33,835 nt of DNA from Thermincola ferriacetica (GTDB lineage Bacteria > Bacillota > Thermincolia > Thermincolales > Thermincolaceae), in NCBI RefSeq assembly GCF_001263415.1, contig NZ_LGTE01000030.1:1-33835 (forward strand), given 5' to 3'. The first letter of the stretch is position 1, and every line of letters starts with the position of its first letter. The notes beneath the pieces were generated by a model, which made no database searches, was not told the DNA's origin, and was given only the letters and a program-made list of their open reading frames with translations. The translations under genes were made by a program, and so were the position numbers. This document shows positions 7,544 to 33,835 of this stretch, piece by piece.

Positions 7544-9103
7544 CTAACTGATTTTGAATTTGAGAATTTCGTTGGTGTTAGGTTCAATGAGGTGAACGGC
7601 ACAGGAAATGCATGGGTCAAAAGACCTGATTACCCGCGCTAGATTAATGGGGTTCTTCGGATCCGGAACAGGAACTCCGATTAACGCCTCTTCAACAGGT
7701 CCCCGGTTGCCTTTATTATCCCGTGGGGACAGGTTCCAGGTAGACGGAACCACCATCTGGTAGTTAGCAATCTTCTTGTCCTTAATGTCGATATAATGAG
7801 CCAGCGCTCCCCTGGGAGCTTCCAGTAAACCCGCTCCCTGAGCCGATTCAGGAACTTCCCAGTGCGCCGTATCGTGGATTCTCACTTCTCCCCGGTTCAT
7901 TAAACTTTCGAGTTCGTCCAGCCACTCAACCATCTTATGAGCAAGCATGATAGTTTCCACGGCTCTGGCAGCATGGCGTGCCACAACACCTGGCTTAATT
8001 TTATATTTCTCAACCAGGTCCATAAATGCTTTTGGCTGCATAACCATCATTCTGGCCAGCGGTCCTACTTCAAGGATCTCGCCGTCATACCTGGGCGCCT
8101 TGATGAAGGAATAAGCGTCAGGCTTGTCCAGCTTGTGCTCGGTATTCCCCTTCAGCGGTGTCAGAGGCTCTTCCACGGCATACCAAGCGTACTTAGCTTC
8201 CTCGGTAATCTTGTCTATATTTACTTCCATTACCTGAGACAGGTTACCGTTCAGGATGAGACCCCGCTTAAAGAACAGGTCTTTACCTTCAGAGTCTTGT
8301 GGGAAACCACCGAAAGCCAGATAGTTCGGCTTACCTCCGCCCAACCCCGACTGTGCCAGCGGTAAAAGCGGACCGGTACCAAAGGCAATTACATCTTTGT
8401 AGTAAATGTTCTCCAGGTACTCAATTTGTTCCATCAATAGGGAGCGGAACTGAGCAACCAACTGCGGGTTGGGGTAACAGGTTACCCCTCCTACAATAAT
8501 ACTGGACTGGTGGGGTTGCTTACCACCGAACAGAGCAGACATTTTCTTGGCTTTGGCCTGCATTTCCAAAGCCTTCAAATAATGAGACACGGCAACAGTG
8601 GCCAGTTCGGGGTCGTTAACACAGTATTGGTCAGGTTCGTAACGCGGAGTCAAAGGTGCGGCATCTCCGGCCTGAACCAGCTTAACAATTTTATCTTTTA
8701 CGGCCAGAAGCCCGGGATCATTTCCCTTGTAGTTGGCAACAGCCATTACATCAATATAATCGAGAGCGCATAAATGATAGAAATGGAGCGGATGGTCATG
8801 CAGCCACATGGCTCCCAGCATCAGGTTTCTCAAAATCCTTCCTGCGTCGGGAACCTGCGCCCCGAATGCATCATCCAGCGCCAGAGAGGAACCCCAGCCA
8901 TGAGATCCGGCGCAAACGCCGCAAACCCTTTCCGTTACATAAGTGGCATCCCGCGGGTCTTTACCCTGCAAAAGAACTTCCCAGCCCCTGAACATAGTAC
9001 CACTGGACCAGGCATCTTTGACCACGCCATTCTCTATTTCCACTTCCACCCTAAGGTGGCCTTCAATTCTCGTCACGGGATCAATTACAATTTTTTGTGC
9101 CAT
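7544..9103 (-). CDS. hyaB: [NiFe] uptake hydrogenase large subunit
   Basis: A 519-residue catalytic subunit that splits H2 at a Ni-Fe(CN)2CO centre. The four nickel-binding cysteines are present: C61 and C64 in the N-terminal RVCGVCAGSHG motif, C498 and C501 in the C-terminal DPCISCAVH motif. The last 15 residues after H504 form the propeptide removed by the co-encoded protease. The RIEGHLRVE start is typical of the family. Sequence type and a Tat-exported partner fit group 1 membrane-bound uptake enzymes. Its ATG shares one base with the small-subunit stop codon (TAATG), indicating coupled translation. It has no signal peptide, so it would cross the membrane with the small subunit. Confidence 0.96.
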   Translation of the reverse strand: MAQKIVIDPVTRIEGHLRVEVEIENGVVKDAWSSGTMFRGWEVLLQGKDPRDATYVTERVCGVCAGSHGWGSSLALDDAFGAQVPDAGRILRNLMLGAMWLHDHPLHFYHLCALDYIDVMAVANYKGNDPGLLAVKDKIVKLVQAGDAAPLTPRYEPDQYCVNDPELATVAVSHYLKALEMQAKAKKMSALFGGKQPHQSSIIVGGVTCYPNPQLVAQFRSLLMEQIEYLENIYYKDVIAFGTGPLLPLAQSGLGGGKPNYLAFGGFPQDSEGKDLFFKRGLILNGNLSQVMEVNIDKITEEAKYAWYAVEEPLTPLKGNTEHKLDKPDAYSFIKAPRYDGEILEVGPLARMMVMQPKAFMDLVEKYKIKPGVVARHAARAVETIMLAHKMVEWLDELESLMNRGEVRIHDTAHWEVPESAQGAGLLEAPRGALAHYIDIKDKKIANYQMVVPSTWNLSPRDNKGNRGPVEEALIGVPVPDPKNPINLARVIRSFDPCISCAVHLIEPNTNEILKFKIS

Positions 9104-23125: not shown

Positions 23126-23584
23126 TTACCCCCCTTTTAACAGTGCCATTAGCATGGATTTAAGAATCTCCGCCCTGAACATATCTCCTTTCCGGCTTTT
23201 ATCATGGCCGGTAACCCTTCTAATTACATTATCAATCATCGAAGCCTCCCGGAAAGTAATTAACTCATCATCAAATAAGCGTTCTACCAGGCCCAGGGCG
23301 CCTGCCAGGCTTATCTCATTACCTACAGTCTTATAAAGGATTTCCAGCAATTTATCTTTTTCCTTGGCGTTAAGTTTCAATATTTTTATATAACCTCCGC
23401 CACCCCGCCTGCTTTCTACTACATAACCGCGGTCAATAGTAAACCGGGTACTTAAAACGTAATTAATTTGGGAAGGGACACAGTCAAATTTTTCTGCCAG
23501 TTCGTTGCGTCTAATCAGTACCACTTCTGATTTTTGCAGCATCTGTTTTATATATTCTTCAATAAAGTCTACTAAACTTGGCAA
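23126..23584 (-). CDS. ctsR: Heat-shock repressor CtsR
   Basis: A 152-residue dimeric repressor of class III heat-shock genes. The winged helix-turn-helix covers about residues 1-70 (LVDFIEEYIKQML, RRNELAEKFDCVPSQINYVL, RFTIDRGYVVESRRGGGGYI), including the glycine-rich wing RGGGGYI that senses heat in this family. The C-terminal domain mediates dimerisation and McsB recognition. The start is TTG at 23584 after GGGGGGAT. It is the first gene of the four-gene operon and represses it through the operator at 23663-23679. Confidence 0.95.
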   Translation of the reverse strand: MPSLVDFIEEYIKQMLQKSEVVLIRRNELAEKFDCVPSQINYVLSTRFTIDRGYVVESRRGGGGYIKILKLNAKEKDKLLEILYKTVGNEISLAGALGLVERLFDDELITFREASMIDNVIRRVTGHDKSRKGDMFRAEILKSMLMALLKGG

Positions 23585-23662: not shown

Positions 23663-23679
23663 TTTGACCTAATTTGACC
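23663..23679 (-). promoter_or_regulatory. CtsR operator
   Basis: On the minus strand GGTCAAA-TTA-GGTCAAA: two perfect heptads of the CtsR consensus with the canonical 3-bp spacer, about 80 bp upstream of ctsR. It indicates autoregulation of ctsR-mcsA-mcsB-clpC. The rest of the 375-bp divergent region to 23960 shows no gene; it is A/T-rich and must hold the promoter of the radical SAM gene. Confidence 0.92.
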
Positions 23680-23960
23680 AAAATGGTAATTTATTGTTTA
23701 TTTTCTTTGATTATCACCCAAATGGCAACAAATTTTAAACCTGTGGCCTTTTTCCAACATTGAAGGTTTGCATGCCCTGTAGCATCGTGGAAGAGAAATA
23801 CTCCAGTAAAAGTTGAAATTAACAAGGCAAATATAAATTTCCTCTTCATTTGTAAATTTTTATATGATAAAATTTAAGGTGTTTTAGCAAGTCCTTCTTT
23901 TTGCAAAATTCAACTGTTAAATCACAGTCATGATTTATATTATAGAAAAGAGGCGACCTC

Positions 23961-25772
23961 ATGATTAAAGATCTATTTAGAAGGGACATGGTTTTTATCC
24001 ATGCTCCCAGTGTGTATGACTTCAGAAAAGATACCATCATGTTTGGCCCTATCAGCGATGTGGTCCCTTCTTCACCTACTTTTGAAATGTATCCAATCGG
24101 TATTACCAGTATCGCCGAAACCCTGGAACAGGAAGGGTTCAATGTGCAAATTATAAATATGGCTTACCGGATGTTAACTGATCGAAGCTATGACGTTGAA
24201 AAAGTAATTGCCAAGATGAACCCACGTTCTTTTGCATTTGACCTGCATTGGCTGCCACATTGCCATGGCAGCATTGAAATAGCTAAAATCTGTAAAAAGT
24301 ACCATCCTGACATACCTATAATTTTTGGTGGGTTGTCTGCATCTTATTACCACGAAGAACTTATCAGATACCCCTGTGTTGATTTTGTTGTCAGGGGAGA
24401 CAGTACAGAAGAACCTGTAAGACAGCTCATGTGGGCCATCAGGAACGGTTCATCTTTTGCATCTATCCCTAACCTGACCTGGAAAAAGCCCGATGGTTCC
24501 GTGGTTGTCAACCCACTTACTCATGTACCGGAAAATATAGATTATGTTTCCATTCCCTGTTATCATTATGTAGTGAGGTCTGTATTTAAATATGGCAGCC
24601 TAGCCAACACTGTTCCATATACAGACTGGTTAAAATACCCTATTACTGCCCTGCTCACCGCACGTGGCTGTACCCAGAACTGTTCCATCTGTGGAGGTTC
24701 CAGGTTTGCCTACAAAAATATATGCAACCGGGAGAAACCCGCATACAGGTCACCTCAATCTCTTGTAAACGACATAAAACAAATTCAAAAACTGGGCAGA
24801 GCCCCGATCTTTGTATTGCATGATTTACGGCAGGCTGGGCCTCAATATGTTGATGAGTTCTTCTCTTTACTTAAGCAAGAGAATATCAAAAACGAGTTGG
24901 TAATTGAATTATTCTACCCTGCCGGTGATGATTATTTTGCCAAAATCGCCGATGCCGTACCGAAGTTCAGTCTGGAAATGACTCTGGAAACCCATATTGA
25001 ATCAATCAGGAAACTAAATGGAAAATTTGCCTGCAGTAACGAAGAAGTGGAAAATACAATTGCCTCAGCCTTTAAATTTGGGTGCCGCAAAATTGATATT
25101 TTCTTCATGAGCGGTATTCCAACCCAGACTTATCAGGATGTTATCGGTTCCATCGATTACTGCCGGCATTTGCTGGAGAAATTCAACGGAGATAAGAGAC
25201 TGGCTCTGTTTATAGCCCCTTTGGCACCGTTTCTAGACCCCGGCTGTCTGGCTTTCGAACAGCCGGAAAAATACGGCTACAAAAAGTTCTGTCATACTTT
25301 GGAGGACCACAGACAAGCCCTCCTGCAGCCGAGTTGGAAACATATCCTCAGCTTTGAAACCGAGACCATGACGAGGGACGATATTGTGCGGTCGACTTAT
25401 GAAGCTGCCCTCAAGCTGAACCGGCTAAAATATGAATTCAATTTGATTGACAGAGAGTTATTTGAACAAATAGACTTCCGGATCAGGGCCGCACAACAGG
25501 TTATGGATGAAATAGACGAAATAATTACCATAGAAAACAGTAAAGAAAAAGAAGAAAGGCTTGCTGAACTGAAACAAAAGGTTGAGCAGTTGAACCGCCA
25601 CACTATCTGCGGTAAAGATGAGTTAAAGTGGCCGATTTCGGAACGATACGGAAGTATTTTCTCTCTGACCGGAGTGTTTATGAAACTGTTTGTCACCGAA
25701 ATGCGATTACTGTGGAAAAGATTCAAAATCAACCTGGCTGAAAGGCCAACTAAACAAAATTACAACGTTTAA
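23961..25772 (+). CDS. B12-binding-type radical SAM protein, Ta0216-like (copy 1)
   Basis: A 603-residue radical SAM enzyme. The N-terminal ~200 residues match the cobalamin-binding-like region of the B12/radical SAM class, with DLHWLPHCHG (94-103) roughly where the corrinoid-ligand DxHxxG motif is expected, then FGGLSASYYHEELI and VRGDSTEEP. The [4Fe-4S] motif is C237-C241-C244 (CTQNCSIC). A helical, charged C-terminal tail follows (~480-603). It resembles the group I recall as TIGR04190 (Ta0216 family), whose reaction is unknown. It is strongly similar to the next gene along its whole length. It has its own terminator. The ATG at 23961 is preceded by GAGG. Confidence 0.88.
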   Translation: MIKDLFRRDMVFIHAPSVYDFRKDTIMFGPISDVVPSSPTFEMYPIGITSIAETLEQEGFNVQIINMAYRMLTDRSYDVEKVIAKMNPRSFAFDLHWLPHCHGSIEIAKICKKYHPDIPIIFGGLSASYYHEELIRYPCVDFVVRGDSTEEPVRQLMWAIRNGSSFASIPNLTWKKPDGSVVVNPLTHVPENIDYVSIPCYHYVVRSVFKYGSLANTVPYTDWLKYPITALLTARGCTQNCSICGGSRFAYKNICNREKPAYRSPQSLVNDIKQIQKLGRAPIFVLHDLRQAGPQYVDEFFSLLKQENIKNELVIELFYPAGDDYFAKIADAVPKFSLEMTLETHIESIRKLNGKFACSNEEVENTIASAFKFGCRKIDIFFMSGIPTQTYQDVIGSIDYCRHLLEKFNGDKRLALFIAPLAPFLDPGCLAFEQPEKYGYKKFCHTLEDHRQALLQPSWKHILSFETETMTRDDIVRSTYEAALKLNRLKYEFNLIDRELFEQIDFRIRAAQQVMDEIDEIITIENSKEKEERLAELKQKVEQLNRHTICGKDELKWPISERYGSIFSLTGVFMKLFVTEMRLLWKRFKINLAERPTKQNYNV

Positions 25773-25774
25773 GA

Positions 25775-25797
25775 AGCAGGTCATGCCTGCTTTTTTT
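25775..25797 (+). terminator. Rho-independent terminator between the radical SAM genes
   Basis: AGCAGG / CCTGCT stem with a 4-nt loop followed by TTTTTTT, immediately after the first radical SAM gene. Confidence 0.88.
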
Positions 25798-25892
25798 ACA
25801 TTAATGATTTTTAAATATAGTTACACTATTTTTTAAATTTGTTAATAACAGCTAACTGCAATATTAATTGTTTATTAACCAGTTAATTTGTG

Positions 25893-25917
25893 ATAAAATT
25901 AACTTGCTGATTTTATA
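25893..25917 (+). promoter_or_regulatory. Inverted repeat and possible promoter ahead of copy 2
   Basis: ATAAAAT and ATTTTAT arms enclose about 10 bases. TTGTGA followed 18 bp later by TTTATA could be a promoter. The element TGATAAAATT also occurs at ~23867 upstream of copy 1, so the paralogs may share a control signal. Confidence 0.35.
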
Positions 25918-25941
25918 GATTAGCCGGATGAGGTGAACTTC

Positions 25942-27777
25942 ATGTTTAAAAAAGATGTTGTGTTTTTACACGCTCCCAGTGTATATGACTTTAGAAAAGA
26001 TACCATTATGTTCGGTCCTATCAGCGATGTTGTACCGTCTTCCGCCACCTTTGAAATGTATCCCGTAGGTATTACCAGTATAGCCGATGCTCTCGAACAG
26101 GCCGGTTTTAACGTACAGATTATAAACCTGGCCTATCAAATGCTGCGCGACCCCAAATATGATGTAGAAAAAGTTATATCCCGGCTGAACCCAAGAATGT
26201 TTGCCATCGATCTGCATTGGCTTCCCCATGCACACGGCAGTATAGAAGTGGCTAAAATAGTAAAAAAATATCACCCGCACACTCCCGTTGTTTTTGGAGG
26301 TTTATCTGCTTCATACTATCACGAAGAACTTATAAATTACCCATGGGTGGATTTTGTATTGCGGGGAGATTCTACCGAAGAACCGATGAAGCAATTAGTT
26401 TTGGCTATCCGCAGGGGCATGCCGGTCAATGATATTCCCAACCTTACATGGAAAACGCCCGATGGCAAGGTCAGGGTAAACCCGCTTACACACGTTCCGG
26501 ATAACATGGATTATGTTTCCATTCCCAGCTATAGTTACTGTGTCCGCTCGGTATTTAAATATGCTAACTTGCATAATACTGTTCCTTACTTAAAGTGGCT
26601 TAATTACCCGATTACAGCTCTGTTAACATCGCGTGGCTGTACTCAAAATTGTTCTATTTGCGGTGGCTCACAGGCAGCGTACAAGAAGATTTGTAACCGG
26701 GAAAAACCAGCCTACCGCTCCCCCAAGACCATGGTGGAAGACATACTATTTTTACAAAAACTCGGCCGGGCCCCAATTTTTATTTTGAACGATTTCCGCA
26801 TGGCCGGGCCGGCTCACACTGAGGAATTTTTGAAACTCCTTAAAGAAGCCGATATTAAAAACGAACTGGTCTTCGAACTGTTTTTCCCGGGGGACGATAA
26901 TTTCTTTGCTAAATTAGCCGATGCTGTCCCCAAGTTTAGTCTGGAAATCACCTTGGAATCACATCTTGAACGTATCCGCAGATTTAACGGCAAGTTTGCT
27001 GTACCAAATGAAGTTTTTGAGAATACCGTCGCCTCTGCTTTTAAATACGGCTGCCGAAAAATAGACATCTTTTTTATGACCGGAATTCCTAAACAATCTT
27101 ATCACGACGCTATATCATGTGTAGATTATTGCCGGGAGCTTCTGGACAAGTTTAACGCTGATAAACGTCTCTGTTTCTTTGTAGCGCCATTGGCCCCGTT
27201 CCTCGACCCCGGCTGTCTGGCTTTTGAAAACCCGGAAAAATACGGCTACCGGCAGTTTTATAAAACCCTTGAAGAACATCGTCAGGGTTTAACCATGCCC
27301 AGTTGGAAATATATTCTCAGTTATGAAACGGATAGTATGACAAGGGATGAAATTGTGGAAGCCACTTACGAAGCTGCCCTGCGGCTCAATGAATTAAAGA
27401 AAGAATATAACTTGATAGAAGAACAGCTTTACCGGCAAATCGATTACCGAATCAGAACGGCGCGGGATATAATAAGGGAAATCGACCAAATCATGACCCT
27501 GTCTGATGAAAAAGAAAAAAAGTTAAAACTTAATGAAATTAGGGTAAAAGTTGCTCAGGTAAATAAAGGCTCGCTTTGCGGTGAAGATGAATTAACCTGG
27601 CCAATCACTGAACGGTTTGCTAGTTTCTTTTCTTTATTTAAAGTTTTAGTAAGTCTTTTCTTTAAGGAATGGGCATTATTCTTCAATCGTATCGGATTTG
27701 AATTGAAGGAACGGAGTTACAGTAGAAATCAAAGAATGGCGATGGCATCTAACAGTAAAAACGACGCGGCACTATGA
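25942..27777 (+). CDS. B12-binding-type radical SAM protein, Ta0216-like (copy 2)
   Basis: A 611-residue paralog of the preceding gene, colinear from the first residues (VVFLHAPSVYDFRKDTIMFG) to the charged tail. The radical SAM cysteines are C233, C237 and C240 in CTQNCSIC, and the putative corrinoid-site motif reads DLHWLPHAHG, with Ala where copy 1 has Cys. The main differences are in the C-terminal tail, which is a few residues longer and ends in a low-complexity Asn/Ser/Met stretch. The ATG at 25942 has GAGGTG six bases upstream; an in-frame GTG at 25933 belongs to that site. Function unknown, and no substrate-revealing neighbour is present. Confidence 0.87.
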   Translation: MFKKDVVFLHAPSVYDFRKDTIMFGPISDVVPSSATFEMYPVGITSIADALEQAGFNVQIINLAYQMLRDPKYDVEKVISRLNPRMFAIDLHWLPHAHGSIEVAKIVKKYHPHTPVVFGGLSASYYHEELINYPWVDFVLRGDSTEEPMKQLVLAIRRGMPVNDIPNLTWKTPDGKVRVNPLTHVPDNMDYVSIPSYSYCVRSVFKYANLHNTVPYLKWLNYPITALLTSRGCTQNCSICGGSQAAYKKICNREKPAYRSPKTMVEDILFLQKLGRAPIFILNDFRMAGPAHTEEFLKLLKEADIKNELVFELFFPGDDNFFAKLADAVPKFSLEITLESHLERIRRFNGKFAVPNEVFENTVASAFKYGCRKIDIFFMTGIPKQSYHDAISCVDYCRELLDKFNADKRLCFFVAPLAPFLDPGCLAFENPEKYGYRQFYKTLEEHRQGLTMPSWKYILSYETDSMTRDEIVEATYEAALRLNELKKEYNLIEEQLYRQIDYRIRTARDIIREIDQIMTLSDEKEKKLKLNEIRVKVAQVNKGSLCGEDELTWPITERFASFFSLFKVLVSLFFKEWALFFNRIGFELKERSYSRNQRMAMASNSKNDAAL

Positions 27778-27786
27778 AAAACTATA

Positions 27787-28186
27787 AAAGCTTAAATAAT
27801 TCCTCCGCTCCAATATTTTCAGGCCAGTCTATAGAAGGGGTGGGTGGGCTCTCCGCTACCACGGAGCTTTATGCTGCAAAACCTTGCCAAGAAGGCAGTA
27901 TTCCCGAACTCGATGGCTCATGATGATATCCTTAATATCTAGGCCGCCTCCCGTCCGGGACACTCAACCTGAGTTGAGTGCCGGACTTCCCGGCGGCCTT
28001 CGCCATCTTCAAACATGCGGGAACCTCCTGCCTTCTTGTCTGCGGTTTTGCGGGGCCAGTCGCTCCTTATCGGTAGCCTGAGAACCCCACCCACCCCTCC
28101 ATAAAAACCGGCAGATTAAAGTAGAGCCCCGCTTCGGAAAATATTTAAGTTCCTCGAATTTATCCGAGAGACCTTTGTCGACAGCC
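27787..28186. repeat. Composite intergenic repeat with insert (copy D)
   Basis: Bases 27787-27848 are the reverse complement of the right half of copy C (up to the core GGGGTGGGTGGG). Bases 28083-28186 are the reverse complement of its left half, ending TTTGTCGACAG. Between the halves, where copy C has a 9-nt loop, there are ~235 bp: a segment matching 363-400 inverted, a 57-bp imperfect hairpin (27942-27998, GGCCGCC ... GGCGGCC), and a segment matching 1-70. No gene was found in 27778-28274. Confidence 0.8.
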
Positions 28187-28274: not shown

Positions 28275-28349
28275 TGGCTCCCCGGGCAGGACTCGAACCT
28301 GCAACCTACCGGTTAACAGCCGGGTGCTCCACCATTGAGCTACCGAGGA
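28275..28349 (-). tRNA. tRNA-Asn (anticodon GTT)
   Basis: A 75-nt tRNA with a 7-bp acceptor stem (TCCTCGG with CCGGGGA, one G-U), discriminator G and encoded CCA. The anticodon arm reads CGGCTGTTAACCGG with GTT in the loop, and the T arm contains GGTTCGAGTCC. A single tRNA gene with its own terminator. Confidence 0.96.
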
Positions 28350-28740: not shown

Positions 28741-29262
28741 CACCGAACGGGCGCTACAGGGGTCTAATCGGTAGATTGGGTCCTCAACGCTTCAGTCTTT
28801 TGGCAAGACAACGACCGGTAAGTATTGGCTGCTACTCCTGATTTAATTTTTCATTTAAGTATTCGGGTATTGTGCCTGAAAATTCTCAGCCCTTTTCTGA
28901 GCCGTTGTGGCTTCACCACTATCTCTCAGAATAGGTCCCTATATCGAGACATCTGCTTATACGAACTTTTCGAACGTACCGTTCTTAATCTTCCTTGACC
29001 TTCGGCCCTTCCTCGTTTCGAATACTATGGCCTCTGCCTTACTTCTGCCAGTTCAGCCTTGCCTTGCGACAAGGGTTGTTAGAAGATTGCACTTGCAACC
29101 ATCTGACGGACGGGCTTTGAAGAGCACAAAGCCCCGCGTTGATACGAATTTCTGCAATTCCTGAGCTATCTGAGCAAGTTGTCGATGAAGCCGAAGTCTC
29201 TTCAATGGAAACCCCTAGTTCCTCCGTTAAGGCAGAGACCTTGTGGGCCTATAAGCGACACG
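28741..29262 (-). ncRNA. Hairpin-rich non-coding region, possible structured RNA or group II intron relic
   Basis: No convincing gene lies between the Cys-rich gene and tatA, but the stretch is rich in small perfect hairpins: 28795-28809 (GTCTT/AAGAC), 28896-28930 (TCTGAG/CTCAGA outer, GTGG/CCAC inner), 29062-29074 (CCTTG/CAAGG), 29087-29098 (TTGCA/TGCAA) and 29112-29134 (GGGCTTTG/CAAAGCCC). Read on the minus strand it begins GTGTCGC seven bases after the tatA stop codon and contains GGCAGAGGCCATAGTA, which resembles group II intron domain I sequences as I remember them. The 33-nt hairpin at 28897-28929 is the size of domain V but lacks its usual AGC triad. Strand and class are uncertain. Confidence 0.35.
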
Positions 29263-33751: not shown

Positions 33752-33835
33752 GATCCGGCAACGACCTACTCTCCCAGGCGGTCCCCCGCCAAGTACCATC
33801 GGCGCTGAGAGGCTTAACTGCCGTGTTCGGGATCA
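33752..33835 (-). rRNA. rrf: 5S ribosomal RNA, 3' part (cut by window end)
   Basis: The reverse complement contains the conserved 5S stretches GATCCCGAACACGG, AGTTAAGCCTCTCAGCGCCG, ATGGTACTTGG and GAGAGTAGGTCGTTGCCGG. About 84 nt are present; the 5' part (roughly 30 nt) lies beyond the right edge. It implies an rRNA operon on the minus strand to the right of the window. Confidence 0.95.

Follow-up and report, generated by a model that had tools for sequence, protein, structure and literature searches.

A stretch of 33,835 bp from Thermincola ferriacetica (contig NZ_LGTE01000030.1), hereafter the window, carries two adjacent genes, copy A and copy B, that encode cobalamin-binding radical S-adenosylmethionine (SAM) proteins of the TIGR04190 family. 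What is new here is that they form an ancient pair that is present throughout the host order, Thermincolales, and is under selection. The explanation we favor, and consider probable, is that of an old in-place duplication after which both copies were kept, with the same cofactor chemistry and a specialized substrate or position of modification for each. An earlier note on this DNA had described tandem paralogs of about 600 residues that are alike from end to end, and the open reading frames (ORFs) bear this out, encoding proteins of 603 and 611 residues with 68% identity over 596 residues in a gap-free BLASTP alignment. The copy B frame spans 25933-27777, and GTG 25933 is merely its first start codon; judged from the sequence, the start is most likely ATG 25942, because an AGGTG Shine-Dalgarno motif lies just upstream and the starts of the orthologs align there.

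Eight of the ten genomes of the host order have two copies, adjacent and on one strand, and the two genomes without the pair are only 61-63% complete. To place this in the phylum, an even sample of 398 Bacillota genomes was surveyed, 18 of which contain the family. Elsewhere in Bacillota TIGR04190 is mostly single copy, in contrast to the diverged tandem pair found here; all sampled members outside the host order are single copy, and a second, independent two-copy case is Neobacillus bataviensis (L019/G398), reached outside the even sample, whose two diverged TIGR04190 genes lie on separate contigs (L046 and L047). The host genome itself (G000; 3.18 Mb in 78 contigs) has no further member above the family cut-off, and a search for plasmid-borne relatives gave only distant radical SAM proteins with <60% identity.

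In a maximum-likelihood tree of 30 TIGR04190 proteins, the A and B copies fall into separate clades of eight proteins each (support 100/98 and 100/100, respectively), and the union of the two clades is also supported (96/95). Two order-wide orthologous clades mean that one in-place duplication is older than the order, and a single event at its base is the simplest history. The single-copy gene of genome G025 has the same ctsR neighbor as the pair, and in all order members with flanking sequence the pair and the ctsR operon point in opposite directions away from each other. We propose that an ancestral single-copy gene, already next to ctsR, would have been duplicated in place before the order radiated, and that both copies would have been retained from then on. 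Within one genus, dN/dS (the ratio of nonsynonymous to synonymous substitution rates) is approximately 0.03 for copy A and 0.015 to 0.04 for copy B, and these low values reflect strong purifying selection on both.

A recent neutral tandem duplication, a prospect raised in the earlier note in case relatives were always single copy and the pair nearly identical in DNA, would account for the adjacency only. The pair is order-wide, its coding DNA is 66.5% identical with saturated synonymous sites, and strong purifying selection acts on both orthologous clades; the phylogeny and the degree of divergence refute such a duplication, and we give it almost no credence.

Family, fold and predicted chemistry

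Both proteins match the NCBIfam model TIGR04190 (B12_SAM_Ta0216) above its curated cut-off of 500 bits and near full length (model positions 1-536 for copy A and 1-553 for copy B, of 554), and both contain PF02310 B12-binding and PF04055 Radical_SAM domains above cut-off. TIGR04190 is a named family with no reaction assigned, and it includes archaea and bacteria, judging from its name and from our searches; a search of the accessible literature found no paper that names TIGR04190 or Ta0216. The three cysteines of the CxxxCxxC motif are invariant across the 30 family members in the tree. BchE and HpnR have the same domain pair and are among the next-best family models, but the scores of the two proteins (43.7 and 50.0 bits against a cut-off of 481 for BchE, TIGR02026; 56.4 and 54.9 bits against a cut-off of 650 for HpnR, TIGR04367) place them outside both families. 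The AhbB co-occurrence expected of a component of the Ahb/NirJ heme pathway is likewise lacking (see below).

A structure of copy B predicted from 17 sequences has a mean predicted local distance difference test score (pLDDT) of 77.3 and a predicted template modeling score (pTM) of 0.77, and its best fold matches are class 1 cobalamin-dependent radical SAM enzymes and related folds: CysS (Z 19.5), TsrM (18.9), AprD4 (18.8), MgmA (18.8), OxsB (17.3), and TokK (15.8). From these matches and the domain hits, A and B are predicted to belong to class 1 (the MetH-like Rossmann type), with CxxxCxxC in the radical SAM barrel and an N-terminal MetH-like Rossmann cobalamin domain before it. Domain order and fold are common to A, B, CysS, TsrM, TokK, and OxsB, but with only 10-17% identity; solved relatives searched for by sequence gave none at E 0.001, and a profile search gives a weak TsrM match. 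Each copy would therefore be read as a cobalamin domain at the N terminus, followed by a partial TIM barrel in which a [4Fe-4S] cluster held by CxxxCxxC would cleave SAM, and by a helical C-terminal domain that ends in a long, partly hydrophobic helix. This last helix (residues 562-610 in copy B) is partly hydrophobic in most members and is compatible with membrane contact, although model confidence is low there.

Enzymes of this class most commonly catalyze methyl transfer, but some form or contract rings, so the reaction type of A and B is one that we infer: the same cofactor chemistry for both, with radical methyl transfer most likely and a ring- or C-C-forming step next. Class B radical SAM methyltransferases are those that move methyl from methylcobalamin onto an unactivated carbon or phosphorus. 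The class 1 fold also includes non-methyltransferases, such as OxsB and BchE (PMC13331322).

Where the two copies differ

The earlier note had singled out the HCHG of copy A and the HAHG of copy B as a difference at a putative cobalamin site. The difference is real in this genome, but it does not mark the paralogs, and its reading as the functional difference is not supported. The middle residue is alanine in every copy B protein and every outgroup, and alanine, valine, or cysteine within copy A, and it is therefore a tolerant site; the LHWLPH ahead of it and the HG behind it are invariant in 30/30 members. The loop after strand 3 lies beside the cobalt in class 1 enzymes, and it is here that A and B carry the invariant LHWLPHxHG. 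In solved members this loop supplies the residue under the cobalt: asparagine in OxsB, arginine in TsrM, and tryptophan in TokK (PMC13331322). In the copy B model, strand 3 (residues 87-90) is followed by L91-H92-W93 and then by a helix starting with LPHAHG, from which we infer that one of two invariant residues, H92 and W93, would be the candidate under the cobalt, rather than the variable HxHG residue.

Alignment columns that are invariant inside each clade (eight A and eight B proteins) were compared, and 22 fixed differences between A and B were found: none in the 96 columns of the cobalamin domain, with 2/23 in the linker, 13/114 in the radical SAM barrel, and 7/54 in the C-terminal part (cobalamin domain 0/96 versus rest 22/191; Fisher p = 1e-4). 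Because the cobalamin domain has none of the fixed differences, A and B are probably specialized in substrate or position while using a common cofactor chemistry. Copy A retains more of the outgroup states, and many of the fixed differences are derived in copy B; one is the change from His287 of copy A to Asn283 of copy B. The region just after barrel strand 2 is near the SAM site in radical SAM folds, and by inference the H287/N283 position would be too.

An alternative is that the same enzyme is present twice, kept for dosage or for condition-specific expression and without a substrate difference. The unchanged cobalamin domain and the separate promoter-like sites (see below) are both consistent with this, although it sits poorly with an identity of just 68% after an order-deep history and with a set of 22 fixed differences that falls in the linker, the catalytic barrel, and the C-terminal part and is in good part derived in copy B. 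We consider it a possible explanation, but a doubtful one. For specialized copies, the closest working model, by analogy and with no claim of family membership, is GrsA/GrsB, homologous archaeal radical SAM ring synthases of glycerol dialkyl glycerol tetraethers (GDGTs), which sequentially modify C-7 and C-3 of a single lipid and differ in expression (PMC10465181). GrsA and GrsB act on archaeal tetraethers, whereas the A/B pair is bacterial, and S. acidocaldarius has TIGR04190 matches below cut-off only.

Transcription signals and neighboring features

The earlier note had given each gene its own upstream region, with a strong terminator between them, and both are found in the window (Table 1). 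The terminator hairpin has nine pairs, begins one base past the copy A stop, and is followed by T's; it is missing from the list of a simple terminator scanner and was identified in a separate hairpin analysis. It is not universal in relatives: it is clear in the window and at L011, L015, and L058, weaker at L013, and not clear at L014 and L016, and the A-B gap at L012 is 13 bp. The extended -10 of copy B, TGTGATAAAAT, occupies 25889-25899, and the six aligned genomes that possess the B leader keep it together with part of the -35; the corresponding TGnTAAAAT of copy A is kept in 7/7 aligned genomes. These signals suggest that A and B are transcribed separately in most order members, with exceptions, and different control of the two is therefore possible.

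The same signals bear on whether A and B act as an obligate heterodimer or as a catalytic/regulatory pair, one of the options in the earlier note. The genes are adjacent in every pair genome and both are conserved, and with its 13-bp gap L012 is likely to co-transcribe them. Nonetheless, one copy suffices in most relatives outside the order, most pair genomes have a terminator, a separate promoter-like site, or both between the genes, and A and B have lost none of the residues that are invariant in the family, among them the three cysteines and the LHWLPHxHG loop, so neither is a degenerate partner. We found no positive support for a heterodimer and regard it as unlikely. The other option, two specialized enzymes under different control in a family without a known reaction, agrees better with our observations, namely membership in TIGR04190, order-wide retention, two clades, purifying selection, and separate promoter-like sites.

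The divergent neighbor of copy A is a ctsR-like gene in a ctsR-mcsA-mcsB-clpC operon, and the ctsR-like gene (cluster 2) is present at nine loci. The gap between copy A and this gene contains a perfect CtsR-type operator at a distance of just under 200 bp from the -10 of copy A, so copy A could be controlled by CtsR, although this is not indicated. An Rfam scan of the copy A leader and of the region downstream of copy B gave no match up to E = 5, riboswitches included.

Several other features of the window were recorded. In the interval that separates copy B from a tRNA gene (28278-28349, reverse strand), a perfect 13-nt inverted repeat, AGGGGTGGGTGGG, occurs at 27836-27848 and 28086-28098, and flanks approximately 240 bp of G+C-rich, hairpin-rich non-coding DNA with no Rfam match up to E = 5. 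A group II intron remnant (Rfam RF01998, D1-D4-1; 29005-29260, reverse strand) without an intron-encoded protein lies beside a short tatA-like frame. A 5S rRNA gene (33753-33835, reverse strand) is at the contig end, and the contig therefore probably ends in an rRNA operon. The large subunit of a nickel-dependent (NiFeSe-type) hydrogenase (829 bits against a cut-off of 600) is encoded at 7547-9103 on the reverse strand, approximately 15 kb from the pair.

Table 1. Positions in the window of the two genes, their motifs, and the flanking signals.
Feature	Positions	Strand	Basis or state
Copy A, TIGR04190-family cobalamin-binding radical SAM protein, 603 aa	23961..25772	+	ORF, 743.5 bits
Copy B, TIGR04190-family paralog, 611 aa from ATG 25942	25942..27777	+	ORF, 859.1 bits
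CTQNCSIC of copy A, CxxxCxxC [4Fe-4S]/SAM motif (C237, C241, C244)	24669..24692	+	Cys invariant, 30 members
CTQNCSIC motif of copy B (C233, C237, C240)	26638..26661	+	Cys invariant, 30 members
HCHG of copy A, residues 100-103, first helix turn after cobalamin-domain strand 3	24258..24269	+	Sequence, predicted secondary structure
HAHG of copy B, residues 96-99	26227..26238	+	Sequence; state of all outgroups
His287 in the HDLRQAG of copy A, which follows barrel strand 2	24819..24821	+	Fixed in 8/8 copy A; outgroup-like state
Asn283 of copy B in NDFRMAG, equivalent position	26788..26790	+	Fixed in 8/8 copy B; H to N change
Intrinsic terminator GAAGCAGG-TCATG-CCTGC then T run, 3' of copy A stop	25773..25797	+	-11.3 kcal/mol
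Copy B promoter-like site TTTATT, 17 bp, TAAAAT; TG one base upstream (extended -10)	25871..25899	+	Sequence alignment
Copy A promoter-like site with extended -10 TGATAAAAT	23845..23873	+	Sequence alignment
Perfect CtsR-type operator GGTCAAATTAGGTCAAA in divergent ctsR/copy A gap	23663..23679	-	0.02 expected by chance
ctsR-like gene of ctsR-mcsA-mcsB-clpC operon, conserved divergent neighbor	23126..23584	-	Name by sequence inspection

Gene context in relatives and candidate substrates

The earlier note had stated that no substrate gene is nearby. This is true for the window, but some relatives have informative neighbors. The single-copy gene lies at two different positions in the heme operons of two genomes, with the order nirJ1, TIGR04190 gene, nirJ2, ahbA, ahbB in G798 (L089:6407-11946) and nirJ1, nirJ2, ahbA, ahbB, TIGR04190 gene in G797 (L090:9063-15068). 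In two distant lineages (G013/G059 and G047/G381), a cassette with a multiheme cytochrome c and a cytochrome b561 is found within a few kilobases of the TIGR04190 gene, and in G047/G381 nuo-type genes, named by sequence inspection, precede it. Of the genomes with the TIGR04190 gene, 12/18 have the cassette cytochrome, compared with 21/380 of those without the gene; counted by genus, the figures are 9/15 versus 18/251. MenG is present in 20/21 gene-positive genomes. Within the order of G320, which we take to be Halanaerobiales, the TIGR04190 gene is confined to MenG-positive genomes (6/6 versus 2/7). The co-occurrence tables are uncorrected for ancestry or for an anaerobic respiratory lifestyle, and they are therefore leads only. 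As side observations, a BchE-like protein (L048:15291-16742, reverse strand; 416 bits against a cut-off of 481) is encoded approximately 4 kb from the single-copy gene of G013, and a region of the host genome (G000:C1:83440-102743) contains ResB-like genes, AhbA/AhbB, and another cobalamin-type radical SAM match in a 982-residue open frame.

Two substrate assignments can be weighed against these contexts. A specific role of TIGR04190 in anaerobic heme (Ahb/NirJ) biosynthesis would explain the operons of G797 and G798, but across the 398 genomes co-occurrence with AhbB is absent (6/18 gene-positive versus 116/380 gene-negative; p = 0.8), and seven genomes that carry the pair (G001, G002, G004, G005, G006, G008, and G009, all of family f2) have no AhbB match; we think such a role quite improbable. 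Multiheme cytochromes are present in most family f2 members, and with no AhbB match there the heme route of the family may differ from that of G000. The modification of menaquinone or of another membrane lipid of respiration is a tentative possibility. The MenG distribution, the hydrophobic C-terminal helix of most members, the adjoining nuo-type genes of G047 and G381, and the nearby b561 and multiheme cytochromes are in keeping with it; against this, MenG is common, G123 and G795 have MenG without a TIGR04190 gene, and members from the order of G320 have a weaker C-terminal helix, a part that is also of low confidence in the model.

The leading guess for the substrate would be a respiratory-chain cofactor that is lipid-soluble or a tetrapyrrole, and context elsewhere is a weak lead toward a respiratory heme, quinone, or lipid. 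In its most specific form, the proposal is that the pair performs two cobalamin-dependent radical modifications, either successive or position-specific, on a membrane-soluble respiratory cofactor (quinone, heme, or lipid) so far undescribed in this order, with single-copy relatives performing the first step only; we put this forward as a speculative and rather unlikely case.

Several observations count against specialized copies acting on a respiratory substrate. First, the binding of cobalamin and of [4Fe-4S] by A and B, and their activity, are predicted from sequence only. Second, the fixed differences show no significant enrichment at the ends of the barrel strands (6/13 versus 34/101; p = 0.37), and there is no substrate gene within the window. 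Third, several gene-positive genomes, including that of the window, are without the cassette cytochrome, and the cytochrome association may reflect a shared anaerobic respiratory lifestyle. The AhbB results given above, both the lack of co-occurrence and the lack of a match in family f2, weigh in the same direction, and ResB (cytochrome c maturation), considered as a strict partner, was rejected, as it was not found in 7/21 gene-positive genomes.

The pair is not a new kind of system but a clean, testable paralog pair of an uncharacterized family. With an unchanged cofactor domain and differing catalytic and C-terminal parts, it offers a natural comparison within the unassigned TIGR04190, and the product of copy A together with the additional product of copy B, once found, would assign the family. 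The heme operons, multiheme cytochromes, complex I genes, and menaquinone-positive genomes in the contexts of relatives point to profiling of hemes, quinones, and lipids first.

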